Source: Streptomyces sp. cg36 (GTDB taxonomy: Bacteria; Actinomycetota; Actinomycetes; Streptomycetales; Streptomycetaceae). From it: a stretch of 64,000 nt of DNA. Shown piece by piece: positions 2,402-31,113 of this stretch; position 1 is the first letter of the stretch, and each line of letters begins with the position of its first letter. A model generated the notes under the pieces. The model searched no databases. It saw only the letters and a program-made list of their open reading frames with translations, and was not told the DNA's origin. A program made the position numbers and the translations under genes. The DNA is taken from contig NZ_CP163520.1 of NCBI RefSeq assembly GCF_041080675.1, positions 8,461,501 through 8,525,500 on the forward strand, written 5' to 3'.

Positions 2402-3856
2402 TCAGGCTTGGGTGAACCAGCGGGCCTGTTCCGCGTCGGTGACCGTTCTGTGCTGGTGGCTGATTTCGGCCGCAGCAAGGTGGACCAACGCGTCGATGGT
2501 CTCTTCCCCGAATGCGTGCTCGGCGGGCTTGCTGTGTTCCAGCAGGCGGAGCGCTTCGTCGAGACTCGCGGGCAGTTCCGGTTCGTCGCGCGCGGTGTGG
2601 GCGTCGTCGAACCAGCGCGGCGGCACGGCCAGAGTGGATTCCAGGCCGTGGACGATGGCGGCGATCACTGCCGCCATCGCGAGGTAGGGGTTGGCATCCG
2701 CTCCACCAACTCGGATCTCGGTGCGCAGGCTGGGGCCCTGGCCGGTCACCCGCACCGCGCAGGTGCGGTTGTCGATGCCCCAGGTCATGCGGGTGGGGGC
2801 GAAGGAGCCGGGCAGGTAGCGCTTGTAGGAGTTGGTGTTCGGCGCATACAGCACCGCCAGTTCGGGCAGCACATCCAGCATCCCCGCGATCGCCCGCTTC
2901 CCCGTCTGGGAGAGCACCCTTCCTTCGTGGTGGGGGAAGGCGGGGGTGCCGTTGCGGGTGAGGGAGACGTGCAGGTGCAGGCCGCTGCCGACGCCGGTCT
3001 GCGGCGCGGCCATGAAGGTGGCCTGCGCCCCGGCCTGGCGGGCCAGGGTGCGGGCGGCGTGCTTGAACATGACGTGCTGGTCACAGGCTTGGAAGGCGTC
3101 CCCGTAGGGGAAGGTGACTTCGATCTGCCCGGCGGCGGCCTCGGTCTTGACCGCCTCCACCGGCATACCCGCCGCTGCCAGAGCGTGCTGCAGGTGGTGG
3201 ATGTAGCGGGTGAAAGCGGGGGGCTGGTTGAGGCCGTAGTCGCCGCCCGGGGTCAGCGGCGCCAGTCCGGGCCCGCCGACCGTCTGGCCGGGGGCGTACA
3301 CACCTTGGTAGAGGACGAACTCTGTTTCCAGGCCGGCGTGGGCGTGCAGTCCGTGGGCGGCCAGACGGCGAAGCTGGTGCCGCAAGACCTCCCGCGGATT
3401 GAGTACGGCCGGCTCGTCCCGGCCGGTGAAGGCGTCGGCCAGGACGAGCGCGGATTTCGGCAGCCACGGCACGGTCCGCGCGGTTTCCAGGTCGGGCATC
3501 ACGCGGAAGTCGGGAAAGCCCTCCTCCATGGAGGCGAGGCCCGATCCGGCGGGGGCCGGGTTCATGTCGATCGTGCTGGAGAGCAGGTAGGCGCACATCT
3601 CCGCGCCGTGCGGCACGACCTCGTTGAGGAAGTGGCGTGCACCGAACCGCTTGCCGACGAGCCGTCCGTGCGGGTCGACCAGCGCACACACCACCGTCTC
3701 GACGCGGCCGTCCCCGACCGCTGCGGCCAGGGCCTCCCGAGGAGAAGACGCGGGGGACAGCGGCCGGGACGGGACGGCCATGCGGGCGGAGGAGAGAAGC
3801 GGGCCGCCAGGGTGCTCGGACTCGGCGCCCCTGCGGGGATTGAACAGGGGAGGCAT
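2402..3856 (-). CDS. glutamine-synthetase-family ligase (GlnA-like, probably gamma-glutamyl amine ligase)
   Basis: 484 residues with the GS fold: metal/ATP motifs LETEFVLYQG near residue 160 and KTEAAAGQIEVTFPYGD near 225, GSGLHLHVSL near 280, and C-terminal VGGADANPYLAMAAVIAA. True glutamine synthetases have the same order. This one has a shortened N terminus and is adjacent (TGAATG) to an amino-acid/amine permease. That arrangement resembles the GlnA3/GlnA4 ligases that glutamylate polyamines or ethanolamine in Streptomyces. The substrate is inferred from neighbourhood only. GAGGTGG precedes the ATG. Confidence 0.85.
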   Translation of the reverse strand: MPPLFNPRRGAESEHPGGPLLSSARMAVPSRPLSPASSPREALAAAVGDGRVETVVCALVDPHGRLVGKRFGARHFLNEVVPHGAEMCAYLLSSTIDMNPAPAGSGLASMEEGFPDFRVMPDLETARTVPWLPKSALVLADAFTGRDEPAVLNPREVLRHQLRRLAAHGLHAHAGLETEFVLYQGVYAPGQTVGGPGLAPLTPGGDYGLNQPPAFTRYIHHLQHALAAAGMPVEAVKTEAAAGQIEVTFPYGDAFQACDQHVMFKHAARTLARQAGAQATFMAAPQTGVGSGLHLHVSLTRNGTPAFPHHEGRVLSQTGKRAIAGMLDVLPELAVLYAPNTNSYKRYLPGSFAPTRMTWGIDNRTCAVRVTGQGPSLRTEIRVGGADANPYLAMAAVIAAIVHGLESTLAVPPRWFDDAHTARDEPELPASLDEALRLLEHSKPAEHAFGEETIDALVHLAAAEISHQHRTVTDAEQARWFTQA

Positions 3857-5377
3857 TCAGACCACCTCGTCCTGGATCTCGGCGAGGGTGCCGCTGGCCG
3901 GGACCGCGGGCAGCTCGTAGCCCTTGCCCGCCGCCTTCCACCACACCGCTGCCAGGGCGAGGGCGACGAGGAGGGCGAGGGGGGCGTAGTTGAAGGTGTC
4001 GATGGTGACGGGATGGCTCTGGGGCAGGCAGAAGACGACCGTCACGAACGCCACCCACACCACCGCGACCGTCCCGACCACCCCGCTCCAGCGGCCCAGG
4101 TTCCAGGGGCCCGGCTCGAAGGCGCGGCCTTTGCGGAGGCGCAGGTAGATGGGGATGGCGTAGGCGGGGGTGATGCCGATGACGTTGATGGCGACGACCG
4201 CACCGTAGGCGGTCGGGCTGTAGAGGTAGGGCAGGGCGAGCAGGGCGGCGACGGTGACCGAGAGCCATACCGCGGCCCGGGGTGTGCCGGTGGGTTCGTG
4301 CACCGTGCGCCAGCGGGTGGAGCCGGGCAGGGCGTTGTCCCGGGAGAACGCGAAGATCATGCGGGAGCAGGCGGCGGTCTCGGCGTTGCCGCAGAACAGC
4401 TGCGCGATGATCACCACCAGCAGCAGCGCCTTCGCCCACCCCACCCCCAGCGCGTCGAGGAAGATCTGCGCCGGAGGCACACCCAGTGCGCTGTTCTGCA
4501 CTGCTGTGTAGTCGTGGATGGCGAAGGTCAGCCCGCACAGCAGGATGAAGCCGGCGGCCCAGGACCAGGTGATGGCGCTCATGATGCCGCGCGGGGCGGC
4601 CTGGGCGGCGTGGGTGGTCTCCTCCGACAGGTGGGCGGAGGCGTCGTAGCCGGAGAACGTGTACTGCGCCAGCAGCAGCCCGAGCAGGATCACATAGCCG
4701 TTGGAGGACCAGCCGGTGGTGTTCACAAACGCGGTGAACGCGTAGTTGGGGGAGCGGTGGTGGGTGGGGGCGAGGGTGAGGGCGCCCACGATGAGGACGA
4801 CGCCCGCCAGGTGCCACCACACACTCACCACGTTCAGCAGCGATATCAGCCGCACCCCGAACAGGTTCAGCACCGCGTGCAGCACGAGGATCCCCAGGTA
4901 GATGGCCATGATCTTGCCGGGGGTGGGGGTGAAGCCGGTCTGCAGGTTCAAGAACGCGCCGGTGAACAGGGCCGCGCCGAAGTCGATCCCGGCGATGCCG
5001 CCGAGCAGGCCCAGCAAATTGAGCCAGCCGGTGTACCAGCCCCACCTTCTGCCGCCGAGGCGGTCCGCCATGAAGTACAGGCCGCCGCTGGTGGGGTAGG
5101 CGCTGGTGACCTCGGCCAGTGCCGCCCCCACACAGCAGACCATGAGACCCACGGCCAGCCAGCCCCACAGCATGACGGCGGGCCCGCCCGCCCCCATGCC
5201 GAAGCCGTACATCGTCATGCACCCGGACAGGACGCTGATCACCGAGAACGAGATGGCGGCGTTCCCGAACCGGCCCATCCGCCGGGACAGCTCAGGGGTA
5301 TAGCCCAGCTCACGCAGCCGCTCATCATCGGCCAACGCGGCCCGTCTGGCCGGGGGTAAGGACGGAGAAGACAACAC
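3857..5377 (-). CDS. APC-family amino-acid/amine permease
   Basis: About 506 residues with some twelve hydrophobic segments. The APC opening motif appears as FGNAAISFSVISVLSGCMTM, followed by EVTSAYPTSGGLYFMADRLG and the conserved YDASAHLSEET. It would import an amino acid or amine across the membrane using the ion gradient. The start is placed at GTG 5377 (a TTG at 5374 is equally possible) because GGAGG lies just upstream. The more distal in-frame GTG at 5404 lacks one. Its stop abuts the start of the ligase gene, so transport and ligation are probably one pathway. Confidence 0.9.
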   Translation of the reverse strand: MLSSPSLPPARRAALADDERLRELGYTPELSRRMGRFGNAAISFSVISVLSGCMTMYGFGMGAGGPAVMLWGWLAVGLMVCCVGAALAEVTSAYPTSGGLYFMADRLGGRRWGWYTGWLNLLGLLGGIAGIDFGAALFTGAFLNLQTGFTPTPGKIMAIYLGILVLHAVLNLFGVRLISLLNVVSVWWHLAGVVLIVGALTLAPTHHRSPNYAFTAFVNTTGWSSNGYVILLGLLLAQYTFSGYDASAHLSEETTHAAQAAPRGIMSAITWSWAAGFILLCGLTFAIHDYTAVQNSALGVPPAQIFLDALGVGWAKALLLVVIIAQLFCGNAETAACSRMIFAFSRDNALPGSTRWRTVHEPTGTPRAAVWLSVTVAALLALPYLYSPTAYGAVVAINVIGITPAYAIPIYLRLRKGRAFEPGPWNLGRWSGVVGTVAVVWVAFVTVVFCLPQSHPVTIDTFNYAPLALLVALALAAVWWKAAGKGYELPAVPASGTLAEIQDEVV

Positions 5378-17651: not shown

Positions 17652-18542
17652 TCACGACGTCTCCCGGGGTGCGCAGGCTGAGCGCTGGCGGACGCTCTGG
17701 CCGTCGGGGCCGGCGGTGAGTTCGTAGTCGGGCAGGCGGGGCCAGCCCAGGTCGCGCCAGGGCCGGGGCTCGCGCTGGGAGCGAAGGCGCATGAAGCTGA
17801 CGGCGGCGACCAGCCTGCCGCTGGCGTGGCCGTGGCCGTCGGTGGTGAGCAGGGCCAGAGCGTCGTCGCCGAACGGGGTCGCCACGGGGGTGAGGATCGT
17901 CCCGCCGGGGCGCATCTGTTCCAGCCAGGCGGGCGGGATCTGCTGGACACATGCGGTGCTGATGAGCCGGTCATACGGTGCGCGGGCGGCATAGCCCGAT
18001 TCCCCGTCGGTGACGGCGATCGTGGGGGAGGGCACGCCGCGGGCGTGCAGTGCCCGGCGGGCGCGGTCGGCGGTGGCGGGGTCGATCTCCATCGTCGTGA
18101 GGTGGCGGGCGCCGACGCGGTGGGCGAGGAGAGCCGCGTTGTAGCCGGTGCCGGTCCCGATCTCCAGCACGTTCTCTCCCGGCTGCGGATCGAGGTGGTG
18201 GAGCATCTGCACCACGACGGCCGCACAGGAGATGGAGGACGTGAAGGCGTTCGATGCGGTGGCGCCGTCGGCCGGGGTGACGGCGCCGTCCTCGATCTGC
18301 GTGATCAGCGGGGTCCGGGCGGAGTAGACCGCGTCCAGCCACCGCTCGGGATCGAGGGTGCGGTCGATGAGGGGGTAGAGGCCGTCCTCGCCCCGCTGGG
18401 GCCACCACACCTGGTCGGGCACGAAGTGCGCGCGGGAGACGGACCCGAAAGCCTCGCGCAGCCAGGCGCGGTCGTTGAAGTAGCCGCCCCGGTAGGTGTC
18501 GATGATCCTTGCGCACGCGGTGGCGTGCTGCTGCTCGTCCAT
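17652..18542 (-). CDS. PIMT/PCMT-like methyltransferase, peptide-associated (module 1)
   Basis: 296 residues, longer than housekeeping protein-L-isoaspartate methyltransferase (about 210-230). The PIMT active-site block appears as TSSISCAAVVVQML near 101-114. SAM motif I is VLEIGTGTGYNAALLAHR near 125-142, and post-I LTTMEIDPATADRARRAL follows. The C-terminal 80 residues are an extra part (SGRLVAAVSFMRLRSQREPR). It follows a 47-residue peptide gene by 24 bp in the same direction. In imiditides, PIMT homologues beside a precursor gene convert Asp to aspartimide; that role here is inference. Confidence 0.8.
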   Translation of the reverse strand: MDEQQHATACARIIDTYRGGYFNDRAWLREAFGSVSRAHFVPDQVWWPQRGEDGLYPLIDRTLDPERWLDAVYSARTPLITQIEDGAVTPADGATASNAFTSSISCAAVVVQMLHHLDPQPGENVLEIGTGTGYNAALLAHRVGARHLTTMEIDPATADRARRALHARGVPSPTIAVTDGESGYAARAPYDRLISTACVQQIPPAWLEQMRPGGTILTPVATPFGDDALALLTTDGHGHASGRLVAAVSFMRLRSQREPRPWRDLGWPRLPDYELTAGPDGQSVRQRSACAPRETS

Positions 18543-18566: not shown

Positions 18567-18710
18567 TCAGCTCTCGGCGGGCGCGCCGCCGCCCATGCGG
18601 TCCTCGTCACCACCGTGGCCCTGGCCGTTGCCGGTGTCGCCCTGCCCGCCGCCGTGGATGTCGCCCTCTTCGCTCTGGTCGCTGCCGGAGGTCCCGTTCG
18701 TCCGTCCCAT
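18567..18710 (-). CDS. 47-residue Gly/Asp-rich peptide, candidate RiPP precursor (module 1)
   Basis: A short gene with a strong ribosome-binding site (GGGAAGAAGG) in front of the ATG at 18710. It encodes 47 residues starting MGRTNGTSGSDQSEEGD and continuing with IHGGGQGDTGNGQGHGG. There are no cysteines, Gly is about 36%, and Asp stands at 11, 17, 25, 35 and 37. It ends 24 bp before the PIMT-like gene. D25-T26 and D37-R38 are possible modification points. No homologue was recognised; the precursor call rests on context. Confidence 0.65.
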   Translation of the reverse strand: MGRTNGTSGSDQSEEGDIHGGGQGDTGNGQGHGGDEDRMGGGAPAES

Positions 18711-18957: not shown

Positions 18958-20181
18958 ATGGCCAGGAGCGACCTGATCCGGCAGGCATGCGAGCAGCGGG
19001 GCTGGGGTCCCAGCGACCTCGCGCGGGCCGTGGGCGTAGCCGAGAGCGGCGACCCGGGCCGCGTGCATCGCGCGAACGCGAACCGCTGGATGAACGGCAC
19101 CCGCACCCCGGCCTACTGGTGGCCCCACATCGCCGACGTCCTCGGCCTCGACCGCGACAGCCCGGGACGTACCCCCAGCGGGCCCGGCGGCGGGCGCGCG
19201 CCGCTGGCGGCGCTGGCGCGCCTGACCGAGACGGAACTCCCCCAGAACATCCGGCCGGGCGACGTGGAGGAGGTCCAGCAGGCGGCGCTGAACCTGTCGC
19301 AGTGGCACAACTCCAACGGCGGCGGCGGACTGGTACGCCAGACCGGCACGGGACAACTGGCCTGGGCCGCGGCCCTGCTGGGCGTGCCCTGCCGGCAGAC
19401 TCTGCAGCCGCAGCTGTTCTGCGCAGTGGCCCACCTGGGCATGGTCACCGGCGCCGTCTGCTTCGACGCCTTCGCCCACCATGACGCCCGCCAGGCATTC
19501 ATCTTCGCCGCGGCCTGCGCCGAAGCGGGCGGCGACTGGCACCTGCGCTGCAAGATCTACAGCTGGCGCGCCCGGCACGCCGTGTGGACCGGAGAGCCCG
19601 ATCAGGCACTCATCCACGCCGAAGTCGCCAGCGTCCGTGCCGAACGGCTCACCCCCTCCGAGCGGGCCATGCTGGCCATCGCCCGCGCCCGCGCGCACGC
19701 CCGCCTCGGAGACGAGCAGGCCACCCTCGGCGCGGTCGGCCAGGCCGACGAGGAATTCAGCCACGCCTGCCCCGACCAGGACCCTGTCTGGATGTCCTAC
19801 TACGACCACGCCCAGCACCAGGGTGACACCGGACACGCCCTGTTCGACCTCGCCATGACCACCCGCAAGCCGCAGCACGTCCAGGCCGCCCGCGAACGCC
19901 TCGCCGCCGCATCCGCCCAGCACACCGACGCCTACCTGCGCTCGCGCGTGTTCTCCCGGACGAAGCTCGCCACCCTGGCCGTGATCACGGGAGACGTCCA
20001 GGAAGCCGCCACGATCGGCGCCCTCGCCCTGCAGGAGTCCACCCGGATCCGTTCCGGCCGTGCCGACTGGGGACTGCGGGAACTCGCCCTCACCACCACC
20101 CGCCAACGCGTTACCGTGCCCGAGGCAGCCGAACTCTGCGAGCGCATCACCCGCACCACCGCCAAGGGAGCATCGACGTGA
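18958..20181 (+). CDS. TPR-type regulator with N-terminal HTH
   Basis: 407 residues. The HTH is ACEQRGWGPSDLARAVGVAE, with RANANRWMNGTRTPAYWWPH as the recognition part. TPR-like helices follow (WAAALLGVPCRQTLQPQLFC, KIYSWRARHAVWTGEPDQAL, SERAMLAIARARAHARLGDE). GGGAGAGATGAG precedes the ATG. Its stop overlaps the GTG of the next kinase gene. It is divergent from the 47-residue peptide/PIMT pair, so it is the natural candidate regulator of that module. Confidence 0.85.
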   Translation: MARSDLIRQACEQRGWGPSDLARAVGVAESGDPGRVHRANANRWMNGTRTPAYWWPHIADVLGLDRDSPGRTPSGPGGGRAPLAALARLTETELPQNIRPGDVEEVQQAALNLSQWHNSNGGGGLVRQTGTGQLAWAAALLGVPCRQTLQPQLFCAVAHLGMVTGAVCFDAFAHHDARQAFIFAAACAEAGGDWHLRCKIYSWRARHAVWTGEPDQALIHAEVASVRAERLTPSERAMLAIARARAHARLGDEQATLGAVGQADEEFSHACPDQDPVWMSYYDHAQHQGDTGHALFDLAMTTRKPQHVQAARERLAAASAQHTDAYLRSRVFSRTKLATLAVITGDVQEAATIGALALQESTRIRSGRADWGLRELALTTTRQRVTVPEAAELCERITRTTAKGAST

Positions 20182-21122
20182 GGGTCACCACCAGCAGCGA
20201 CACGGCCGCCCAGGACACACGACCCCTGGTCACCCAGGCATGCCGCGCCGCTGGACTCGACCCCACCGGCGCCGAGCCCGTCCGCATCGCCGACAACGCC
20301 ATATGGTCCCTGCCCGGCCGCATCGTCATCCGCATCACCCGGCCCGGCCGCCGCCCCGCAGCTCGCCGCGAACTCCTCACCGCCCAATGGCTCGCTGAAC
20401 ACCACCTCCCGGCCGTCCGCCCGGCCCATCCCACAGCGGTCGACCTGCCCGGCAACCGGGCAGCGACCTTCTGGGAACAACTGCCCGAGCACACCGTCGG
20501 CCGGCATGAGGACGTCGCCCGCCTCCTGTGCCGCCTGCACCAGCTGCCCGCACCGGCCCACCTGCCCACGCTCGCCGACCCCGCCACCAAGGCACGCTCC
20601 CGCCTCGAAACGCTCCCACACCACTGCGTCATCTCCGAAGCCGACATGGGCTGGCTGCTCGGGTACGCCGAGGAACTGGCCGACGCCTGGCGTTCGCTGG
20701 ACGACGGCCTGGCCCCCACACCGCTCCACGGCGATGCCTGGGCCGGCAACGTGGCCCGCACCCCCGACGGGCAGTGCTACCTCCTCGACCTGGACTCAGC
20801 CGCCGTCGGCCCACCCGAATGGGACCTGACCTCCACGGCGGTGAAAGTCGACACCACCGCGACCATCCCCCTGCACGAGTACGCCCGCTTCGTCACCGCC
20901 TACGGAGGCCACGACGTCCGCGACTACGCCGGCTTCCCCGTCATGCGAGGCATCCGGGAACTGCGCATGACCACCTACGCCATCCAGACCGCAACCGACC
21001 ACCCCCACACCGCCGTTGAGGCCCGCCACCGCGTGGCCTGCCTACGCGGCCGCAACGGCCCCCGCCCCTGGAGATGGACCGCGGTCCCCCATCCCCCCGG
21101 CAGCCCCGGCCCCATCGTCTGA
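20178..21122 (+). CDS. APH-fold small-molecule phosphotransferase
   Basis: 314 residues. Nucleotide-binding lobe AIWSLPGRIVIRITRPGR, catalytic loop PLHGDAWAGNVARTPDG, metal motif LLDLDSAAVGPPEWDLTSTA. It is similar in plan and length to the kinase at 16696, including the shared GPPEWDL/GHPEWDL block and a C-terminal IRELRMTT motif in both, so the two are paralogues. The GTG at 20178 overlaps the regulator stop (GTGA). Substrate unknown. Confidence 0.8.
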   Translation: MRVTTSSDTAAQDTRPLVTQACRAAGLDPTGAEPVRIADNAIWSLPGRIVIRITRPGRRPAARRELLTAQWLAEHHLPAVRPAHPTAVDLPGNRAATFWEQLPEHTVGRHEDVARLLCRLHQLPAPAHLPTLADPATKARSRLETLPHHCVISEADMGWLLGYAEELADAWRSLDDGLAPTPLHGDAWAGNVARTPDGQCYLLDLDSAAVGPPEWDLTSTAVKVDTTATIPLHEYARFVTAYGGHDVRDYAGFPVMRGIRELRMTTYAIQTATDHPHTAVEARHRVACLRGRNGPRPWRWTAVPHPPGSPGPIV

Positions 21123-21446
21123 CCCAGGACACCACACAGAACCCGGCCCGGCGCACCGGCCACACCCACGCCTCACCGGCCATGAGACGTCCACCCCGTC
21201 CCCGCGCCACCAGCAGGCCGCGGCTGCCCTGCTGCCGCATGTGCTCTCTTCGTGGAGACGCTCGGCTTCGGCCGTCTGCCGGGCTCGCAGGGCCTCCGCC
21301 GCCTTGCGGCCGCCTCTGCCTGACCGCCTGGCGGCGGGCTGCCGCCTCACGCCGAGCTTTCTGTCCTTGCCGTCGCTGTTCCCTATGGCGGGGGCCGGCG
21401 GGTCACGCGGGCGAACCGCCCCGCCTGGGGCGCGGCATGGCCTAGC
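21123..21446. other. intergenic, 324 bp
   Basis: No coding pattern on either strand. It contains the promoter region for the APH-like gene at 21447. No conserved hairpin or RNA was recognised. Confidence 0.35.
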
Positions 21447-22481
21447 GTGCGACGGGTGACGGATGCAACGCTCGACGAAAAAACCCTTCTCGACGCCCTG
21501 CCCGCTCTTACGGCGGCCTTCGCTCTTCCTGATGTGCGGGAACACCGGTTCCTGGCGGACGGGTTGATGAACCGGAACTGGCGGATCGACACCGGGTCGG
21601 GCAGCTATGCGGTCAAGCAGATCATGGACGTGCCGGTGGCGAAGGTCCGCCGCAACCTGGGGGTGCTGTCCGGACTTGCCGCCGACGGCCTGCCCGTTGT
21701 GGCCGCGCTGACTACGGCCGGCGGCGAGAGGGTGGTGGACATCGACGGGCGCAGTTACTGCGTGCTGCCCTGGGTCGAGGGCCGCCATGTCCCCGGCACT
21801 GATCTCACTCCCGGCGAGGCCAGCGACCTCGGGGCCCTGCTGGCCCGGCTCCACCAGGCCCTGGAAGGCCGCGCGCCGTCCCCGGTGCCCGAGCCGGACC
21901 TCGTCGTGAAGGTCACAGACGCCGGTGTGGCCACGGCGCGCGCCGACCGCCTGCTGGCCCTGGTCCCCACTGACGGCGCCGACCCGTTCGACCGGGCCGC
22001 CGCCGATGCCCTGCGCCGGCGCAGGACGCTGCTGGCCGCGTACGCCGACCAGCAGCCCTCCGTGCGGATGCCCGCTGCCCTTCACGGATGGACGCACGGC
22101 GACTTCCAGTACCGCAACCTCCTGCGCGCCGATGGCCATGTGGTGGCGATCCTGGACTGGGACCGGCTGGCGGTCCGCCCGTACGCGGAGGAGGTCGCGC
22201 GGACCGCGCAGGTCCAGTTCGGCGTGGATGGACGGTTCGATCTCGAACGGGTCGCCGCGTTCGTCTGCGGCTACCGCTCCCTCATCCCCCTGTCGCCCGG
22301 CGAGCTGGCCGATGCGGTGTCCCGGTTGTGGTGGAAGCGGATGACGGACTACTGGCAGCTGGAGTTCCACTACGACCGAGGCGACACGAGCTGCGACAGC
22401 CTGTTCCTGGCCGATGAGCAGCTGCTGCACTGGTGGACCGGCCACCGGGATGTGGTGCAGGACGCGTTCCGCGCCGCGTAG
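21447..22481 (+). CDS. APH/homoserine-kinase-type phosphotransferase
   Basis: 344 residues. FLADGLMNRNWRIDTGSGSY and AVKQIMDVPVAKVRR form the N-lobe; GWTHGDFQYRNLL is the catalytic loop and VAILDWDRLAVRPYAEE the metal site. It is larger and more like the ThrB2/HSK2-type APH branch than the kinases at 16696 and 20178. It ends only 5 bp from the convergent end of the glycosyltransferase operon. The GTG at 21447 or 21456 is the start. Confidence 0.8.
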   Translation: MRRVTDATLDEKTLLDALPALTAAFALPDVREHRFLADGLMNRNWRIDTGSGSYAVKQIMDVPVAKVRRNLGVLSGLAADGLPVVAALTTAGGERVVDIDGRSYCVLPWVEGRHVPGTDLTPGEASDLGALLARLHQALEGRAPSPVPEPDLVVKVTDAGVATARADRLLALVPTDGADPFDRAAADALRRRRTLLAAYADQQPSVRMPAALHGWTHGDFQYRNLLRADGHVVAILDWDRLAVRPYAEEVARTAQVQFGVDGRFDLERVAAFVCGYRSLIPLSPGELADAVSRLWWKRMTDYWQLEFHYDRGDTSCDSLFLADEQLLHWWTGHRDVVQDAFRAA

Positions 22482-22486
22482 AGGGG

Positions 22487-23575
22487 TCACTCCAGGAGTC
22501 CGGCGGCGGCGAGTTCGGGCAGGCACGGGCGCACCAGGGGCAGGGCCCGTTTGCGGGCGGTGGCGCCCCGTGCCTCGGCGTCGCGCGCCTCGATGGCTCT
22601 GGCCCAGGCGCCCGCGTCGTGCTGGGGCAGGACCAGGCCGCCGCTGTCGATGGCTTCGGGGATGCCGCCCCGGTTGGAGCCGAGCGCGGGCAGGCCGTGC
22701 AGTCCGGCTTCGGTGATCACTCGGGGGAAGGCGTCCTCGACCAGGGAGGGCACCAGCAGCAGGCGGTGCGTGGTGTAGAGGGCGCCCATGTCGTAGGTGC
22801 GCGGCACGTACCGGACGTTGGGGTAGCGGGTGAAGTCGGCGGCGGTGTCCCACCAGCCCTCCACGAGCGTGAACCGCTCGCCGGGGAGCCGCTGGATGAG
22901 GTCGTGCAGGACGACGGAGCCCTTGGCCGGGACGGGGTTGACCATCAAGAGCCCGGCCGTGGCGCCCGGCCCTCCGAGGTGAGGTGGGGCGCTGCGGCCG
23001 GCGGGGTGCTGCCCGTCACGTGGCCGCGCCGGGGGCTGGAACGGCGGGTAGAACACCACGGTGTCCGTCTCGCGGCGGGTGCCGATCCGGGAGGCGGCGA
23101 ACCGGGACGTGGCGAGCGCGGTGTGCGGGCGGCCGTGCAGGACGCCCAGGCCGGTCGGGGACACCGAGTGCACCCATCCCGCGACCCGGCGGCGGGCACG
23201 GCGCGCCAGGGCGGCGAGGTCGGCCGACCGCTCCTGCGAGGTCACCACCAGGTCCGGGGCCAGGGACAGCAGGGCGTGTGCGAACGTCCGCTCCAGTTGG
23301 TGCTGGGATACTGCCGTGCACTCCACGCCGTTCCACCGGTAGCGCAACTCCCCGTCCGCCTGTTCGAAGTTGACACCGGTGGCGGTGAGGCGGGCACGCA
23401 GCGCGTCGAGCTGGCAGGGCGCGTTCCACGGCGGCTCGTACGATCCCACGTAGAGGGTGGTCCATCCGGCGCGGGCGAATTCCTCGGCGAGGAGCTGCTG
23501 CGAGACCTCGGCACCGCCGATCAGTAGCGGCGGCGGGGTACGCCGCCAGGCGAACAGCACCGTCGCCCCCGTCAT
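22487..23575 (-). CDS. glycosyltransferase, GT4-type (GT-B fold)
   Basis: 362 residues. N-terminal PPLLIGGAEVSQQLLAEEFA is the GGxE-type acceptor-side opening of GT4 enzymes. GLLMVNPVPAKGSVVLHDLI begins the C-terminal Rossmann part. LLLVPSLVEDAFPRVITEAG is the EX7E-type donor motif, and LPALGSNRGGIPEAI follows. It would transfer a sugar from a nucleotide donor. It is the last gene of the coupled leftward operon, overlapping the kinase gene by 4 nt. Confidence 0.85.
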   Translation of the reverse strand: MTGATVLFAWRRTPPPLLIGGAEVSQQLLAEEFARAGWTTLYVGSYEPPWNAPCQLDALRARLTATGVNFEQADGELRYRWNGVECTAVSQHQLERTFAHALLSLAPDLVVTSQERSADLAALARRARRRVAGWVHSVSPTGLGVLHGRPHTALATSRFAASRIGTRRETDTVVFYPPFQPPARPRDGQHPAGRSAPPHLGGPGATAGLLMVNPVPAKGSVVLHDLIQRLPGERFTLVEGWWDTAADFTRYPNVRYVPRTYDMGALYTTHRLLLVPSLVEDAFPRVITEAGLHGLPALGSNRGGIPEAIDSGGLVLPQHDAGAWARAIEARDAEARGATARKRALPLVRPCLPELAAAGLLE

Positions 23576-24195
23576 GGCCGGGCCCAGTGCCGCACGAGGC
23601 TTTCCACGGCCCGCGCGGTGTCCTCGCGCGGGCCGTCGCCGGGCACCACCGTGACCTCGGCGGCAATCGCAGGAGACACCGGATCGCAGAAGTAGGTGCG
23701 GGCGTGGTGGAGGAAGCGGGGGTCATGGAGGAAGTAGTCCGGTTCGACGGCGGTGTGCCCGGCCTCCTTGCGGCGCAGCGCCAGGCTCTCTGGGCATGTG
23801 TCCAGGTAGAGAGTGTGGTGGGGCCGCAAGTAGGCGAGCCGGTCCAGACGGCGCCGGGCCTGGGGAAGGGTGCCGTAGCCGAACATGGCGTCCAGGGCGT
23901 GCGCGTGAGCCAGGAGCGTGTCCACGGACCGGTCCAGGACGATGAGCCGCGCACCCGGCTGCCTGGCTGTCGTGGCCACCCGGTCTCCTTCGATCCGCAT
24001 GAACGTCTCGAACGCCTGTAGCTGGCCGGCGGCGGAGCGGGTGAGGGCCGGGGGGATGTCCGCGCGGCGCGGGATGCTGCGCACGTAGCAGTCGAAGAAC
24101 AGGACGTGGCCGGGCACAAGCACCTGGCGCAGGTGGCTGATCATGGTGGTCTTCCCGCCGTAGGACGGTCCCTCGAAGGCGACGACGGTCGTCAT
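23572..24195 (-). CDS. dTMP-kinase-like P-loop kinase
   Basis: 207 residues. P-loop FEGPSYGGKTTMI near 8-20, DRSVDTLLAHAHALD as the DR(S/Y) segment, and YLDTCPESLALRRKEAG as the LID-side motif, all as in thymidylate kinases. The placement among glycosyltransferases and a deacetylase is unusual for a housekeeping enzyme. It may phosphorylate a sugar, nucleoside or antibiotic intermediate. It overlaps both neighbours by 4 nt. Confidence 0.75.
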   Translation of the reverse strand: MTTVVAFEGPSYGGKTTMISHLRQVLVPGHVLFFDCYVRSIPRRADIPPALTRSAAGQLQAFETFMRIEGDRVATTARQPGARLIVLDRSVDTLLAHAHALDAMFGYGTLPQARRRLDRLAYLRPHHTLYLDTCPESLALRRKEAGHTAVEPDYFLHDPRFLHHARTYFCDPVSPAIAAEVTVVPGDGPREDTARAVESLVRHWARP

Positions 24196-25076
24196 GATCC
24201 GTCCTCCAGCCGGTAGAACCGCTCTGCGTACCGGGCCGGGCCGTGCGACGGCGGGTCGACAAGCTCGCGCGCGACGGTCCAGGCATGCCGCAGCGGCCGG
24301 TACATCTTGCGGGCCGGGTGCATCTGGGAGCCGTGGAGCCGCAGCAGCGTGAGCTTGTCCAGGACAACCCCGGTGATGTCGGCCAGTTCAGGGGTGAGGG
24401 TGTTGTTGGTGCGCTGCTCGAACAGGGCGCGGTCGCATCCGGCGAGCGCGTAGGTCGGCCAGAACGCGACGTCCTCCCAGAACCAGCGGCAGCCCAGCAT
24501 GCGGGCGGCCTCGTGGACGAGGAGGTGGTCGGGGTGGCGGGTGACGGCCGCCGGGGCGATCAGCTCCGCTCCGGCATGGTCGGCGAGGACCCCGGCCAGC
24601 TCCTCGGTGATCACCGCGAGGCGGGCGGGGTCGAAGGCCCGGTAGGGCGGGTCCGCGTCGCGGTGCCCGAGCAGGATGCGGCGGGCGCCGAACGGCCGCA
24701 GCGCGGTGGCGGCTTCCTCTTCCCGGATCGCCGAGACGGCCTCCCCACTCGGGTAGGCCGCTTCCAGCATGGGGTGGACGCTGCGGGAGCGGGTGAACAC
24801 CGTGATCACGGTCAGCGGCCGGGGGCGGGTCAGGAACCGGCCGGACGCGGACAGGGCGAAGTCGTCGTGGTGCGGCTCGATCACCACGACCGGGCGGCCC
24901 TCGGGGCGGCGCTCCATGATCCGGTAGCGCTCCCCGGTGACCGGGGCTTTGACCTCCATGACCGGTTCGGTGCCGGTGCGAGTAGCCAGGCGGGACATCC
25001 AGTGGCGGTGGGCGGATTCGAGGTCGTGGGCGAAGGAGTAGATCCCTTCGCCGTCCGGCACGGGCAGGGTCGGCAC
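24192..25076 (-). CDS. PIG-L family deacetylase
   Basis: 294 residues. The zinc motif is IEPHHDDFALSASG near 66-79 (PHHDD for AHPDD), with TRHPDHLLVHEAARML carrying the second HxxH element. This family removes acetyl from GlcNAc-containing glycosides, as in MshB or antibiotic pathways. The GTG at 25076 follows GGGAGCC at a proper distance. It starts 25 bp after the GT2 gene and overlaps the kinase gene, supporting a sugar-modification pathway. Confidence 0.85.
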   Translation of the reverse strand: MPTLPVPDGEGIYSFAHDLESAHRHWMSRLATRTGTEPVMEVKAPVTGERYRIMERRPEGRPVVVIEPHHDDFALSASGRFLTRPRPLTVITVFTRSRSVHPMLEAAYPSGEAVSAIREEEAATALRPFGARRILLGHRDADPPYRAFDPARLAVITEELAGVLADHAGAELIAPAAVTRHPDHLLVHEAARMLGCRWFWEDVAFWPTYALAGCDRALFEQRTNNTLTPELADITGVVLDKLTLLRLHGSQMHPARKMYRPLRHAWTVARELVDPPSHGPARYAERFYRLEDGS

Positions 25077-25101
25077 GAGGAGGCTCCCAACGGGCGGCGG
25101 G

Positions 25102-25836
25102 TCAGCGGACGGTGGACTGGTACCAGTGCCGCCAGAACCGGGGCGAGGACAGGGCGAGGCGGGCGGTGACGGGGTTCTGCCACCACCACATGCGCCACGC
25201 GGGCCACTGGTCGTAGCGGCGGGTCGAGGGCCGCACCCGCAACTCATCGAGGATCCGCACGGGCTGTGCGGTGCGCTGTCCGTGGGCGGTCAGGCGGGCG
25301 AAGAACTCGACGTCCTCGCTCATGAACAGGTCCGGCCGGTAGCCGCCCACCTCCTGGAAGGCGGCCCGGGTGCAGAACTGGGCCACGCCCTGGGCGCCGC
25401 CCGTGCGGGTACGGTAGGCGTCCCACAACGCGCACAGCAGCTGGGCTGCGAACCGGGCCGGTGTGTAGAGCGGCGGGATGGCACCGCCCACGCACGGCCC
25501 GTGCGCCATCGCGGTCACACAGGCGGCGATGGCTTCCAGGGGCAGGGCCACGTCGGCGTCGGTGAAGAACAGGTAGCGGCCCAGAGCTGTACGGGCCCCG
25601 GTGTTGCGCACCCGGCCGATGCTGCGGACCGGTTCGCTGACCACGCGGGCACCAAGGGAACAGGCCACGGCAGCGGTCTGGTCGGTGCTGGCGTTGTCGA
25701 CGACGACGATCTCCCCGACCGCCCCCGAGAGGTGCTCCCAGTGCCGCAGGGCTGCGGTGACGGTGGGCAGATAGCGGGGCAGGTACGCGGCCTCGTTGAA
25801 TGCGGGGATGACCACCGACACCTCGGGCGCGGTCAT
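25102..25836 (-). CDS. glycosyltransferase, GT2-type
   Basis: 244 residues. EVSVVIPAFNEAAYLPRYL opens the GT-A fold, IVVVDNASTDQTAAVA and RYLFFTDADVALPLEAI give the nucleotide and DxD sites, and SEDVEFFARLTAHGQR is the acceptor ED motif. It is soluble, apart from a Trp-rich C terminus (WPAWRMWWWQNP) that may touch the membrane. The ATG at 25836 overlaps the upstream stop (ATGA). Confidence 0.88.
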   Translation of the reverse strand: MTAPEVSVVIPAFNEAAYLPRYLPTVTAALRHWEHLSGAVGEIVVVDNASTDQTAAVACSLGARVVSEPVRSIGRVRNTGARTALGRYLFFTDADVALPLEAIAACVTAMAHGPCVGGAIPPLYTPARFAAQLLCALWDAYRTRTGGAQGVAQFCTRAAFQEVGGYRPDLFMSEDVEFFARLTAHGQRTAQPVRILDELRVRPSTRRYDQWPAWRMWWWQNPVTARLALSSPRFWRHWYQSTVR

Positions 25837-26741
25837 ATGCGGATCCCTTGGTCGTGAAGGACGCGGTGGAGCCGGGCCGCCCACACGCGCTGGTCGCGGC
25901 GCTCGATGCGGGCGGCGAAGGTCCAGCCGCGCAGGGTCTGGAACACCACCAGCGCGTCCAGCAGGCGAGGGTCGAGGGGGCGGCCGTAGGCGGTGGTGAC
26001 GCTGGCGCGGGCGGCAGGGGTCAGGGCGTCGCAGGTGACCAGCGTCTGGGCCACGTCGTACTCGGGCACGCACAGCGTGGTGCCCTCGAAGTCCACCACC
26101 CGCACCCGCCCGGGCAGCTGGCCTTGAGTGCCTGCATCGGCGAGGTGTTCAAGGCCATCTGCCGCGATGACGTTGTCCCAGTGCAGATCGCCATGGCACC
26201 ACACGAAGGCGGCCGGGTCGGCGCACCCCCTGGCGATCACCTCCAGAGCGGGCTTGAGCCACGATGCCAGGCAGGAGGGACAGCGGCGGAGGACGGCGCG
26301 GGCCTGCTCGGTGATGCCGGGCGCCATCGGCACCCCGGCCGGCGGCGTGAGGGAGTGAAAGGCGCCCAGCAGCACACCCAGGCATCCCAGCGCCCCTTCT
26401 GGGGCGACCAGTCCGGCCCGGACGAGACCGCCCAGGGTGTGGGCACCGGCGTCCTCGCTGACCAGCGCGGTGGACGAGAAGCCCGGCACCGGGCCGGCAC
26501 CGATGACCTCCGGCACGTCCACGCGCCCGGACTCGGCAACCGCCCGCAGGGCAAGAGCTTCCGCGCCCGCGTCGTGCCGGGCACGCGGCGCGAACAGCTT
26601 CACCACGACCCTCCGCCCATCCGGCAGGACCACCCGGTACACCGACGTCAGCGGGCCCTGCGCGGCCCTGGTGACGCTCGCGGCGCAGGAGCCGGCCAGG
26701 ACTTCGCACGCGAGAGAGACGGCCGGGTAGTAACGGCTCAC
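25833..26741 (-). CDS. APH-fold phosphotransferase in the glycosyltransferase operon
   Basis: 302 residues. VYRVVLPDGRRVVVKLFAP is the ATP lobe, FVWCHGDLHWDNVIAADG the catalytic loop, and RVVDFEGTTLCVPEYDVAQ the metal site. The GTG at 26741 overlaps the GT8 stop (GTGA). Being inside the sugar operon, it probably phosphorylates a sugar or glycoside intermediate or the product (self-protection). This is the fourth APH-type kinase in an 11-kb stretch. Confidence 0.82.
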   Translation of the reverse strand: MSRYYPAVSLACEVLAGSCAASVTRAAQGPLTSVYRVVLPDGRRVVVKLFAPRARHDAGAEALALRAVAESGRVDVPEVIGAGPVPGFSSTALVSEDAGAHTLGGLVRAGLVAPEGALGCLGVLLGAFHSLTPPAGVPMAPGITEQARAVLRRCPSCLASWLKPALEVIARGCADPAAFVWCHGDLHWDNVIAADGLEHLADAGTQGQLPGRVRVVDFEGTTLCVPEYDVAQTLVTCDALTPAARASVTTAYGRPLDPRLLDALVVFQTLRGWTFAARIERRDQRVWAARLHRVLHDQGIRI

Positions 26742-27622
26742 CACAACCCGCCCGCAACGCCGACGGACCGGTCCCCGAGGCGCCCGAGCAGACGGAGAGT
26801 CCCCGCAGCGTGCGCCCGGTAGGCCCGGACCCCTTCGGTGACGGGGCAGGACGCCATCCACGGCTTGTGGCCGCCGACGAAGTGCAGGGCCGTCGCGTCC
26901 GCGTTCAGCGGGCGCCGCACGACACGTCGCGCCCAGTCACCGCGCTCCAGGAACCGGCCGATCTCGAACCGGTTGAACGCCGCGCCGACCGGGTGGACCC
27001 CGCCACTGGCCAGCAGCCACAGGTTCAGGGCGTCCTGGTCGTTGTGCAGGATGTGACGGCGCCACCGGACCAGGGCGGCCTCCACCCCCGCCCGCAGCCC
27101 GGCGAGGGCCGTTTCCGGCACCCAGAGCATCCCCGCGTTGAAGTAGGGCCGCCCCCGCAGCCGGGGCCACCGCTCGGCGACGCCGGGCAGCGCCGGACAC
27201 GCGCCGACAGCCGGGTTGAACTCGTCGCGCACCGCCCCGACACGGCCCTCTGGCAGGCTGTGAAGAGGACCGGACAGGTCCCCGGCCACCAGGACATCCG
27301 CGTCCACGTAGACCAGGTAGGGGCGGTCCACGAACTGCGCGGTGAACTGGAAGCGCAGGTAGGTGGTGACGGTGATGTACGCGCTGTCCGCCATCACGCT
27401 GGACGGCGACGGCGCCCGGTACTCAAGGCCGAACGAGGCGAACCCGCACCGGCGCGCCACGGCCGCCATGGTCTCGGCGTGCGGGCGGCTGAGATCCAAC
27501 GTCAGGACCCGCACCGCCACATCCCGCCGCACCGCCGCATCGAGGCCGTCGGCCAGCGAGGTGAGCGTGACCAGCGACGGCAGGAAGTACCCCTCATCAA
27601 CACACATACCGATCGCGTACAT
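26738..27622 (-). CDS. glycosyltransferase, GT8-type
   Basis: 294 residues from ATG 27622, which has GAGGAG 8 nt upstream. MYAIGMCVDEGYFLPSLVTL opens the fold, YLVYVDADVLVAGDL has the DxD at about 107-109, YFNAGMLWV and HNDQDALNLWLL follow, and HFVGGHKPWM is the GT8 HxxGxxKPW motif. Retaining enzymes of this family move Gal, Glc or GlcNAc. The frame stays open upstream to an ATG at 27925, so a longer form cannot be excluded. Confidence 0.85.
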   Translation of the reverse strand: MYAIGMCVDEGYFLPSLVTLTSLADGLDAAVRRDVAVRVLTLDLSRPHAETMAAVARRCGFASFGLEYRAPSPSSVMADSAYITVTTYLRFQFTAQFVDRPYLVYVDADVLVAGDLSGPLHSLPEGRVGAVRDEFNPAVGACPALPGVAERWPRLRGRPYFNAGMLWVPETALAGLRAGVEAALVRWRRHILHNDQDALNLWLLASGGVHPVGAAFNRFEIGRFLERGDWARRVVRRPLNADATALHFVGGHKPWMASCPVTEGVRAYRAHAAGTLRLLGRLGDRSVGVAGGLW

Positions 27623-27925
27623 GCCAGTACTCCTCGGGCAGAAGGAAAAACGGGGCTCCGGCGCCCGGCGGCTCGTGCCCGGGCCGGGCGCCGAAGCGGT
27701 CTCAGCGCCGCCGCCCTCACCGTCTTGGGCGGCATCCTTGCCGGGCGCGGCCACAGCGGCCCGCCCGCTGGACTGGCCGTAGGCGATGTTGCGGTCCAGC
27801 CGCACCACCATGCTCACCGGCACCCGCAATGCCGGGGCGGAAGAGGGCGGCAGCACCCGGCCGGCTGCGGTGCCCTGGGTCACCTGGTCGAGAGGGCTGG
27901 TTCTGCCTGTTCCGTGAGAGCGCAT
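27623..27925 (-). other. in-frame 101-codon extension upstream of the GT8 gene
   Basis: The frame of GT8 continues upstream without a stop to ATG 27925, with strongly coding third positions in roughly the first 60 codons (for example LRVPVSMVVRLDRNIAYGQS). The later part is Gly/Ala/Pro-rich and contains a hairpin. It could be an N-terminal domain of GT8, a leader or precursor segment fused in frame, or a separate short gene that lost its stop. No family recognised. Confidence 0.4.
27660..27692 (-). terminator. 10-bp GC-rich hairpin with downstream T-run
   Basis: GGCGCCCGGC at 27660-27669 pairs perfectly with GCCGGGCGCC at 27683-27692, with a 13-nt loop. On the minus strand it is followed about 10 nt later by TTTTT (27646-27650). 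It resembles an intrinsic terminator or attenuator between the upstream open frame and the GT8 start. The distance to the T-run is longer than ideal. Confidence 0.4.
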
Positions 27926-28039
27926 CGCGGTTCCGTTTCCGGGGCGTCGTCGCTGTCCGTGGGGAGAGGCTCGGCGGCGTTGCGTATGAGTGAACCGATG
28001 CGACACCCGGCCCGGAACTTCCGTGCCATGGTGGGGAGT

Positions 28040-28072: not shown

Positions 28073-29425
28073 ATGATCGCCAACCGCATCCCGAACACCG
28101 GCCTCCAGTCGCTGATCGGACAGGCGCGCTGGACCAACGGCGAATTCGCCCGGGCGGTCAACCGGGCAGGAGCCGAGAGCGGGCTCCAGCTGCGCTATGA
28201 CGACTCGTCCGTGTGTCACTGGCTCTCGGGCACGATGCCCCGGGCCCGGGTCCGCCCCGCCGTCCTCGAAGCGCTGTCACGCCGCCTGCACCGGCCCGTC
28301 ACCTCAACGGAGGCCGGATTCGGCCCACCACCGGACACCGCCGGCGGTCCCATGGATACCGTGGCAGGACTGATCGAATTGGGGAGCGCGGACATGGACC
28401 CATCCCGCCGGGCGGTACTGGGAGCTGCCGGACTGTTCACGGCAGCCCTGGCCATCCCGCAGTACGCGGAGGCCGCCGACCGCTTCCAAGCTCTCCAGCG
28501 CGACCCGCACCTTCGGATCGGTTACGGCGAGGTCGACACCGTGGTGGCGATGACGGAGAAGATCTCCGAGATCGACGACATGTTCGGCGGCCGCACTGCC
28601 CGGCCACTGGCCGCCGCGTTCCTCGTCAACACCCTCCTGCCCTACCTCAAGGCACAAGCACCCCAGGACGTGAGGGAGGCGATGCTGTCGGCCACCGCCG
28701 ACCACCTCTACCTGACCGGGTACATGGCCATGGACGAGCGCCACGATGGCCTTGCCCAGCGCTACTACGTCAAGGCCCTCGAAGTGGCCGGGGCCGCCAA
28801 GGACCACCTGACCTACTGCACCACCCTGCGCGGCATGAGCGTCCAGGCCGTGGACCTCGGCCACAGCCGCCTCTCCCTCCGCCTGGCCGACTCCGCCTCG
28901 GCCGCCTCCCCCCAGGCCGGTCCGCGCATGCTGGCCTTCCTCGCCGGGCAACAGGCCCACGCCGCCGCCCAGTCCGGCGACCGCACCACCGCCCTGGCCA
29001 AGATCCAGCAGGCCGAGACGGCCATGGAGAAAGCCGAGTCGAAGGCCCGGGCGTTCGGCTCCTACGACCCCTCCTCCCTCGCCTACCACGTCGCCCAAGT
29101 GCGCTATGAACTCGGCGACAAGGAAGCCTCGATCGCCTCCCTGGAGGACTCCGACCGCCTGCGCCACTCGGTGTACCGGCGTGGCCGGGTCCGTCACCTG
29201 GGGCTGCTCGCGGAACGCAAGGCCGAAGTCGGACGCCTGGAAGAGGCATGCGGCCACTGGAACCAGATGCTCGACGAGTACCCCCACGTGCAGTCCGGCC
29301 GGTGCGACGACCGCTTCCACGCGATGCGCGCGGCCCTTCGCCCGTACGGAAAGAATGCGCACGCCCGTGACGTCATGGACCGGGCCAGGGCGATAGCGGA
29401 ATCCCGCCACCCCACCTCCGCCTGA
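28073..29425 (+). CDS. TPR-type regulator with N-terminal HTH
   Basis: 450 residues. WTNGEFARAVNRAGAESGLQ and DDSSVCHWLSGTMPRARVRP form the HTH. A linker with DTVAGLIELGSADMDPSRRA precedes a Tat-like or helical segment and TPR repeats (HDGLAQRYYVKALEVAGAAK, LRGMSVQAVDLGHSRLSLRL, YHVAQVRYELGDKEASIASL). It is most similar in plan to the regulator at 12787, both having a D(M/L)xxxRRxxLxxA block at the HTH-TPR boundary. It is divergent from the glycosyltransferase operon and upstream of peptide/PIMT module 2, so it may control either. Confidence 0.85.
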   Translation: MIANRIPNTGLQSLIGQARWTNGEFARAVNRAGAESGLQLRYDDSSVCHWLSGTMPRARVRPAVLEALSRRLHRPVTSTEAGFGPPPDTAGGPMDTVAGLIELGSADMDPSRRAVLGAAGLFTAALAIPQYAEAADRFQALQRDPHLRIGYGEVDTVVAMTEKISEIDDMFGGRTARPLAAAFLVNTLLPYLKAQAPQDVREAMLSATADHLYLTGYMAMDERHDGLAQRYYVKALEVAGAAKDHLTYCTTLRGMSVQAVDLGHSRLSLRLADSASAASPQAGPRMLAFLAGQQAHAAAQSGDRTTALAKIQQAETAMEKAESKARAFGSYDPSSLAYHVAQVRYELGDKEASIASLEDSDRLRHSVYRRGRVRHLGLLAERKAEVGRLEEACGHWNQMLDEYPHVQSGRCDDRFHAMRAALRPYGKNAHARDVMDRARAIAESRHPTSA

Positions 29426-29842
29426 CCAGGAGACAGTCGGCACACATTCAGTCGCCCAACAGCGTAGGGATTTGCGCGCGCCTCTCCCGCGGGTAGCTGG
29501 AGAAGGCCACAGGCCGGGTCCTCCAGACCTCGCACAGATCCCTCCCGTGCCCGGCGGCAGGCAGATCGTGAGGCCGCTCATGCCCCCTGACAGATCGGAC
29601 GCCGAGGGCCGCGACGTCGGACTCACCGGCCCCTTCTGCGACGTTGAGTGCTTCGAGGAAAGCCTGACGGCGTACTTCTCCCGTCCCGGCTGGACCGCCG
29701 CCCGCGGCTTCGAGGACGGCGAACCGGCCGGACGTCACGCCGGGCGGACACGGACTGGGGCGGCCGGATCGTGCTCTGGCCCCGGTCCGCCGGTTCCCGC
29801 TACGGTCCTGCGTACCGGCAGATGGCGGAAAAGGGGCAGGAG
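29426..29842 (+). other. 417 bp with a possible decayed gene and leader of module 2
   Basis: From ATG 29580 a frame with good codon pattern (FCDVECFEESLTAYFSRPGW, then TAARGFEDGEP) runs about 50 codons. The coding signal then continues in another frame (RADTDWGGRIVLWPRSAGSR). This looks like a short gene with a frameshift. The remainder carries the promoter region of the peptide gene at 29843. Confidence 0.3.
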
Positions 29843-29986
29843 ATGGCGGGCGGAGACGGCAAGGACGGCGGCTCGGGGCAGCACCGCAAGGACGACCCGC
29901 CGCTGTCGGGCGGGAATCCGCCCCCCGACAATTCCGACGGCCGGGTGGAGAACCCGGGAAGCGGATCGGGTAAGCGCCGCAAGTGA
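29843..29986 (+). CDS. 47-residue Gly/Asp-rich peptide, candidate RiPP precursor (module 2)
   Basis: Encodes 47 residues beginning MAGGDGKDGGSGQHRKDD, then PPLSGGNPPPDNSDGRVEN and a basic tail ending GKRRK. No cysteines. AAGGGG lies 6 nt before the ATG at 29843; an in-frame ATG at 29822 lacks such a site. The stop overlaps the PIMT-like start (TGATG). D29-N30 and D32-G33 are the kind of Asp-Asn/Asp-Gly pairs that readily form aspartimide. It has the same length as the module 1 peptide but little sequence identity. Confidence 0.65.
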   Translation: MAGGDGKDGGSGQHRKDDPPLSGGNPPPDNSDGRVENPGSGSGKRRK

Positions 29987-31113
29987 TGACGGACCATCGC
30001 CTGCGGTCCGCAGCGGACCGGATGGATACCGCCATGCGGGAGCGGGGCCTGTGGCCGGACGCGGACAGCCCGTGGGTCCGCGACGCGATGACGGCGCTTG
30101 CACGGCACGCGTTCACGCCGGACACCGTCTGGTCCTGGAACGGTTATGTATGGGTGCCGGCCGACCGTAGTGCCGACCCCGAGCGCTGGGCTGATCTTGT
30201 CTACCCGGGGCCCGACGACTCCACCGTCATCCAGGTCACCGACGGCTTGCCCACCTCCAGCCTGTCCTGCGTGGCGGTGGTCGCCGACATGCTGGACTCC
30301 CTGGTGCCCCAGCCCGGGCACCGGGTCCTGGAACTGGGCACCGGCGCGGGCTGGAACGCGGCCCTGCTCGCCCACCGCACCGGACCCACCGGCCAGGTCG
30401 TCTCCGTGGAGGCCGACCCCGTACTGGCCGAGGCCGCCGCGCAACGCCTGAAGGCGAACGGCTGCGACGTGGAGGTCCGCTGCGGCGACGGCCGCCTCGG
30501 CGCACCCGATCGCGGCCCGTACGACCGGGTGATCGCCACCTACGCCGTCGACACCGTTCCCTGGGCCTGGATCCAGACGACGCGAGGAGGCGGACGCGTC
30601 GTCTACCCCTGGGGCCGCATGGGGCACTTCGCGCTCACCGTCGCCGACGACGGCCAGTCCGCCACCGGCTGGCTCCAGGGCCTGGCCCTGTTCATGCCCG
30701 ACCGCCACACCACCCCGACCACCCCGCAACCGCCCCCACCCCGGCTAGGCGATCAGGCCCAGTTCACGGACACCGAGCTCCTCACCGACCTCGCCGCAGG
30801 GCACCTTCTGTTCGCGCTGCGCGTCTCCCACCCCCACATCCTCATCACCGTCGACCAGCAGGACGGCCGCCCTCGCGTGGACCTGCGTGACGGCACCGGG
30901 CGCACGGGGCACGCCGAAGCGACCACCGCCACCGATGTGCGGTTCGCGGGCAACGCGGCGGACCTGTGGCCCGACCTGCGCGCCGGCTATCAGCTCTGGC
31001 GCGAGCACGGGCGTCCCGAACAGTGGGACTTCGGCATGACCGTCACCCCCCTCACCCAAACAGTCTGGGTGCACAGCCCAAAGACGGGCTCCTACACGCA
31101 AGGACCCCACTGA
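29986..31113 (+). CDS. PIMT/PCMT-like methyltransferase, peptide-associated (module 2)
   Basis: 375 residues, far longer than housekeeping PIMT. N-terminal FTPDTVWSWNGYVWVPADRS resembles module 1 (FVPDQVWWPQRGEDG). The active-site block PTSSLSCVAVVADML is near 89-103, SAM motif I VLELGTGAGWNAALLAHR near 114-131, and VVSVEADPVLAEAAAQRL follows. About 150 C-terminal residues form an extra domain (LLFALRVSHPHILITVDQQD). It is translationally coupled to the 47-residue peptide gene. Role as aspartimide-forming enzyme is inferred from architecture. Confidence 0.82.
   Translation: MTDHRLRSAADRMDTAMRERGLWPDADSPWVRDAMTALARHAFTPDTVWSWNGYVWVPADRSADPERWADLVYPGPDDSTVIQVTDGLPTSSLSCVAVVADMLDSLVPQPGHRVLELGTGAGWNAALLAHRTGPTGQVVSVEADPVLAEAAAQRLKANGCDVEVRCGDGRLGAPDRGPYDRVIATYAVDTVPWAWIQTTRGGGRVVYPWGRMGHFALTVADDGQSATGWLQGLALFMPDRHTTPTTPQPPPPRLGDQAQFTDTELLTDLAAGHLLFALRVSHPHILITVDQQDGRPRVDLRDGTGRTGHAEATTATDVRFAGNAADLWPDLRAGYQLWREHGRPEQWDFGMTVTPLTQTVWVHSPKTGSYTQGPH

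Follow-up and report, generated by a model that had tools for sequence, protein, structure and literature searches.

A two-gene locus in Streptomyces sp. cg36 with the sequence features of a type I pamtide (imiditide) pathway

We have analysed a 64,000-nucleotide stretch of the Streptomyces sp. cg36 genome (contig NZ_CP163520.1, here C1, positions 8461501-8525500; hereafter the window) and describe in it two overlapping genes, one for a 47-residue peptide and one for a 375-residue homologue of protein L-aspartyl O-methyltransferase (PIMT). Judged by its sequence-level features, the pair fits a published class of ribosomally synthesized and post-translationally modified peptides (RiPPs), the type I pamtides or imiditides. 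It very probably constitutes a complete pathway of this type, in which the enzyme would O-methylate Asp32 of the peptide, leading to an aspartimide that would be converted, at least partly, to isoaspartate and aspartate. An earlier note on this DNA had reported the two open reading frames (ORFs) and a TGATG coupling between them; both frames are confirmed (Table 1), and TGATG is present at 29984-29988.

The peptide, MAGGDGKDGGSGQHRKDDPPLSGGNPPPDNSDGRVENPGSGSGKRRK, contains neither threonine nor cysteine. Its residue conservation was assessed over 64 aligned peptides, the window's own included, and is given here in window numbering. Seven residues are invariant—H14, G24, P27, P28, N30, D32, and G43—and the core around D32, the sole invariant aspartate, follows the pattern P-P-x-N-x-D-(mostly G); the residue after D32 is Gly in 57 peptides, Ser in 5, Val in 1, and His in 1. 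The earlier note had named two dipeptides, D29-N30 and D32-G33, as candidate aspartimide sites, together with a basic tail. All three are present in the peptide, the tail reading KRRK; however, of the two aspartates only D32 is kept across the family, as the D29 column holds Gly in 53 peptides and Asp in just 5 (Asn 4, Ala 1, Glu 1). Because this column is mostly glycine, D29 was rejected as a conserved target. The basic tail is conserved as well: column 34 (K44) is Lys in 40 peptides, column 35 His in 43 and Arg in 21, column 36 Lys and Arg in 32 each, and column 37 Lys in 62 and Arg in 2. In four peptides the D32 counterpart is the only aspartate of the aligned core, and all four have an acidic tail beyond it; 14 peptides carry a further Asp-Gly elsewhere. 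The invariant residues are written with varied codons—both codons occur for the invariant Asn and for the invariant Asp, and the Pro columns use three or four—which argues that selection acts on the protein and not on the DNA.

The peptide also accompanies the enzyme across species. Confirmed relatives of the enzyme in genomes taken one per species numbered 213, and the best 80 of their loci formed our locus sample; a profile built from the peptides of eight relatives was searched against the six frames of these loci and of the window (18,114 stretches). Immediately ahead of the enzyme, 63 of the 80 loci gave a match (62 by the position rule, plus locus L092), as did 55 of the 72 loci outside the profile training, with no profile score below 0.1 elsewhere in the 80 loci. 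The window peptide itself matched the profile of other species' peptides with E=2.8e-9 over the same set of stretches. Among the 64 peptide-bearing sequences the two genes overlap by 1-4 bases in 20, and in 43 a start lies within 30 bases, leaving one with neither arrangement. At L042 and L084, only the beginning of the peptide (MREHE...) may be left just before the enzyme, as though the rest had been deleted.

A wider test covered 392 genomes of the genus, with an enzyme cut-off of E≤1e-60 and a peptide cut-off of E≤1e-10, the latter chosen after seeing the list; scoring extended to five first-look enzyme candidates and 19 peptide candidates in each genome. The enzyme was present in 28 genomes, the peptide family in 28, and both in 25 (Fisher p=5e-33); in each of these 25 the two share a strand, and no more than 78 bases separate their aligned parts. 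Three enzyme genomes gave no strong peptide match: G272 has a partial match beside the enzyme (E=2.9e-6), G398 has a partial enzyme and no peptide match, and G167 has a weak match on a different contig. Three peptide genomes (G436, G168, and G392) lack the enzyme at the cut-off, that of G436 lying next door but split over two frames. Weak peptide matches (1e-10 to 0.01) occurred in ten further genomes, of which only G272 and G167 belong to the 28 with the enzyme. The earlier note would have given up the pairing had it not been co-conserved; instead, adjacent pairs recur in 63 loci and 25 genomes. A chance ORF was rejected on the profile match, the residue conservation, the codon variety, and this genomic co-occurrence. 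Orphan members of the peptide family were observed at 3994-4344 (-) of L166 and 3827-4063 (-) of L167, and may be precursors without an enzyme or cases of loss. Plasmids carry the enzyme too (16 records at E≤1e-30): of three records examined, two (S. virginiae and S. antimycoticus) show the peptide motif immediately before the enzyme, and on the third (S. sp. NBC_01186) the motif, as defined here, was not found upstream.

The enzyme matches the Pfam PCMT family over residues 91-220, above the Pfam cut-off. Over 80 aligned sequences, G118 of the S-adenosylmethionine (SAM) binding motif is invariant and G120 and G122 are conserved in at least 90%; in the WXXXGXP motif W338 is invariant, with G342 and P344 again at 90% or more. 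The predicted model aligns with the Thermotoga maritima PIMT (PDB 1dl5, chain A) over residues 9..367, through both the methyltransferase core and the C-terminal domain, at a root-mean-square deviation of 6.2, a value that for the two domains together points to a difference in how they are oriented. In the passages of PMC13001092 and PMC10787088 that deal with it, 1dl5 figures as a PIMT that has a comparable extra domain, and not as part of a RiPP cluster. The earlier note had credited the enzyme with about 150 extra C-terminal residues; an extra domain is indeed predicted, but its separately folded part is somewhat shorter. Entry P0001 of the protein database is the window enzyme as a 359-residue protein (100% identical over 96% of the query), a length expected for translation from Met17; the entry thus appears to lack the first 16 codons. 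The closest relatives in that database (P0002-P0014) share 59-84% identity, and the closest named homologues are from Streptomyces; the peptides of P0002-P0014 fall outside the locus sample, and among the 392 genus genomes the best enzyme match apart from the window has 55% identity.

These features can be set beside those of known systems. In PMC10787088, Lee et al. (2023) report two-gene clusters with 1183 non-redundant putative precursors and 1539 methyltransferases; their type I precursors have about 45 residues and a high content of Gly, Pro, and Asp (class means Gly 17.3, Pro 16.8, Asp 10.2), with at least one conserved Asp near Pro or Gly. Zhu and Link (2026, PMC13001092) name the same class imiditides, list the WXXXGXP motif, and find the class most frequent in Streptomyces and Actinomadura. 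Like SpaA/SpaM of Streptomyces sparsogenes and NmaA/NmaM of Nonomuraea maritima, the window pair consists of two genes with no other RiPP enzyme. It shares with them a Gly/Pro/Asp-rich precursor of about 45 residues, one conserved Asp near Pro or Gly, and a basic C-terminus, and its enzyme shares the PIMT homology, a C-terminal extension of more than 100 residues, and WXXXGXP. The window peptide is 25.5% Gly, 12.8% Pro, and 12.8% Asp over its 47 residues, and the 64 aligned cores average 27.1% Pro, 15.9% Gly, and 7.5% Asp. In contrast to the type I pamtides as described, the window family has the P-P-x-N-x-D-(mostly G) core, in which the second residue ahead of the Asp is always Asn, and is near neutral in charge; NmaA carries His after the Asp (PMC13001092), as does only one of the 64 window-family peptides. 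Two other aspartimide classes do not match. Type II pamtides, or cysimiditides, are also two-gene systems with a PIMT homologue; however, the two CxxCxGxG zinc motifs that flank their Asp are absent from the window peptide, which has no cysteine. Lanthimiditides (LanC partner, TxDGC core) do not fit a peptide without Cys or Thr, and none of the eight LanC-like matches falls within the window.

Table 1. Features of the peptide and methyltransferase gene pair; positions are those of the window.
Feature	Position	Strand	Basis or detail
Precursor peptide gene, 47 aa	29843..29986	+	ATG 29843, TGA stop ending 29986; type I pamtide/imiditide precursor (predicted)
Possible 7-codon N-terminal extension	29822..29842	+	In-frame ATG 29822 would give 54 aa
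Asn30 codon	29930..29932	+	N in 64/64 peptides
Asp32 codon, predicted modified residue	29936..29938	+	D in 64/64; codons GAC 53, GAT 11
Basic tail K44-R45-R46-K47	29972..29983	+	Conserved columns 34-37
Stop/start overlap GTGATG	29983..29988	+	GTG 29983, TGA 29984-29986, ATG 29986
RiPP-type PIMT homologue, 375 aa	29986..31113	+	Family profiles, alignment, predicted fold
SAM-binding motif ELGTGAGWNAAL (residues 116-127)	30331..30366	+	80-sequence alignment
Extra C-terminal domain (residues ~262-367), putative role in reading the substrate	30769..31086	+	Predicted structure, 1dl5_A alignment
WXXXGXP motif WREHGRP (residues 338-344)	30997..31017	+	80-sequence alignment

The start codons of both genes allow for some choice. 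For the peptide, ATG 29843 is favoured over the upstream in-frame ATG because of the AAGGGG at 29831-29836, which we take to be a Shine-Dalgarno-like site; an N-terminal stretch of similar size before the conserved x-H is also found in L048 (47 residues from TTG) and L153. For the enzyme, an in-frame GTG one codon before the ATG gives a GTGA overlap, a form that recurs in 18 of the 64 peptide-bearing sequences, window included; hence, the enzyme may start at either codon.

Translation of the peptide and the enzyme is probably coupled. The enzyme would recognise the linear peptide with the help of its C-terminal domain, the probable contacts on the peptide being the conserved ends, the basic tail among them. 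A methyl group from SAM would be transferred to the Asp32 side chain, and the backbone nitrogen of Gly33 would expel methanol in a spontaneous closure to the aspartimide, whose partial or complete hydrolysis would yield isoaspartate and aspartate. Asp-Gly aspartimides hydrolyse easily. The published relatives SpaA/SpaM and NmaA/NmaM are the basis for inferring these chemical steps (methyl transfer, closure of the ring, and its hydrolysis) and charge-based recognition: SpaM modifies linear SpaA, and replacement of the conserved C-terminal region of SpaA harmed the reaction (PMC10787088).

Several alternatives concern the nature of the product or of the peptide itself. It is possible, though rather doubtful, that it is the aspartimide that functions, as an electrophilic trap preserved in the cell, and that isoaspartate is only its decay product. 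The modified NmaA peptide, mNmaA(M), was purified with partial aspartimide (PMC13001092). As no widely shared protease or exporter was seen among neighbouring ORFs of at least 110 residues, such a product may do its work in the cytosol shortly after it is made. However, the target is followed by Gly in most of the family (Asp-Gly in 57 of 64 peptides), a pair that generally has little protection from hydrolysis.

The best NCBIfam match of the enzyme is TIGR04188, an ATP-grasp-associated methyltransferase family, and the group 13 graspetide methyltransferases of that family (AmdM, ThfM, SsfM) are homologous over nearly the whole enzyme. The pair could be an incomplete graspetide system, in which an ATP-grasp enzyme from another part of the genome cross-links the peptide beforehand; the genome has three ATP-grasp genes above the cut-off (C1 833071, 3936445, and 5586711), and weaker, sub-cut-off pieces at C1 8366387-8366843, about 95 kb from the window. 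We consider this highly improbable. The match reaches 200.6 bits against a cut-off of 380, the window holds no ATP-grasp (TIGR04187) match, no neighbour is widely shared, the window peptide lacks Thr and Cys, and the family has no invariant hydroxyl residue; the substrate is presumably linear, unlike that of group 13. Graspetide membership was rejected on the score and the missing ATP-grasp gene. We give equally little credence to a stand-alone repair PIMT whose small upstream ORF is a translated leader that serves coupling and is not a substrate. Close spacing or overlap of the genes in 63 of 64 sequences would suit such a leader, as would the relatives that lack a peptide; however, it is the peptide residues and not the DNA that are conserved, and the enzyme has the RiPP-type extra domain and motif. 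The enzyme also misses the cut-offs of the four listed NCBIfam repair-PIMT profiles (TIGR00080, 85.6 against 159.05 bits; NF001453, 97 against 188; NF010549, 90.2 against 282; NF010550, 77 against 359), and its passing of the Pfam PCMT cut-off is what any PIMT homologue would do.

Some observations weigh against the assignment to a complete type I pamtide pathway. Seventeen of the 80 loci gave no upstream profile match, seven of them at 35-39% enzyme identity and ten at 43-63%; the latter group includes L042 and L084 as well as L053, which has a diverged peptide copy recognizable by eye, and L100, L103, L104, and L106, which align with only part of the query enzyme. No such methyltransferase lies within about 4 kb of the peptide in G168 and G392 (loci L166 and L167). 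The genome test is not wholly independent, because at least three of its 25 genomes (the window's own and, apparently, L040 and L051) supplied alignment rows. The aligned stretch has a mean net charge of +0.9 (range -4 to +4, His taken as neutral), near neutral compared with the strong positive charge stressed in the review PMC13001092. The fold of the C-terminal domain comes from the 1dl5 rows alone, with the model beyond residue 243 barely tested. SpaA and NmaA were compared by description only, so the P-P-x-N-x-D core may coincide with a published pattern, and in the account of PMC10787088 the isoaspartate of SpaA was not directly confirmed by its authors.

The pair appears to stand on its own. 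Neighbours were compared over 65 loci (the 63 with a profile-matched peptide, L053, and the window) using ORFs of at least 110 residues chosen by GC content at third codon positions, several flanks being short. Apart from the enzyme, no neighbour was common to more than eight loci, and no protease or exporter was widely common beside the pair; the module thus looks like two genes without a widely kept protease, exporter, or regulator of its own. Pfam scans of 26 hand-picked window ORFs found no RiPP enzyme beyond two PIMT homologues. An NsdA-family TPR-like regulator at 28073-29425 (+) scores 412.7 bits against a cut-off of 75, and its stop lies about 417 bases upstream of the peptide. A third module gene such as this regulator is unsupported, as only the enzyme's cluster among the 16 largest shared neighbour clusters holds a window gene. 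Further upstream, at 20178-28006, ORFs for glycosyltransferases (group 1, families 2 and 8), APH-type phosphotransferases, and a PIG-L-type protein follow one another and may form a sugar-linked cluster of their own.

The second PIMT-like gene of the window, at 17652-18542 (-), is a 296-residue ORF that is 43% identical to the enzyme over query residues 27-243; it is preceded by a 47-residue Gly/Asp-rich peptide ORF at 18567-18710 (-), and the two probably correspond to module 1 of the earlier note. The source genome as a whole (G000) has 15 enzyme matches, of which 11 further places were inspected (loci L142-L152). Several of these have their own small Gly/Pro/Asp-rich upstream ORF, with differing patterns, and two (L146 and L148) adjoin ATP-grasp genes and also contain WXXXGXP. 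A single strain may therefore make several different aspartimide peptides.

The function of aspartimide-bearing RiPPs remains to be discovered, according to the review PMC13001092. For the P-P-x-N-x-D branch a membrane-active product is weakly disfavoured by the near-neutral charge and by the fact that no exporter or protease is widely kept beside the pair. A more speculative proposal, to which we assign a low probability, is that the family is an uncleaved, near-neutral intracellular peptide that is not secreted, in which the invariant His14 and Asn30 act after the D32 aspartimide has formed. If this were true, a second step—for example, steered hydrolysis or covalent capture of a cellular partner—would make the peptide a reactive switch or a covalent tag. 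With one invariant Asp, two genes, and an enzyme present in 28 of 392 genomes, the pair lends itself well to the question of what purpose a programmed aspartimide serves.
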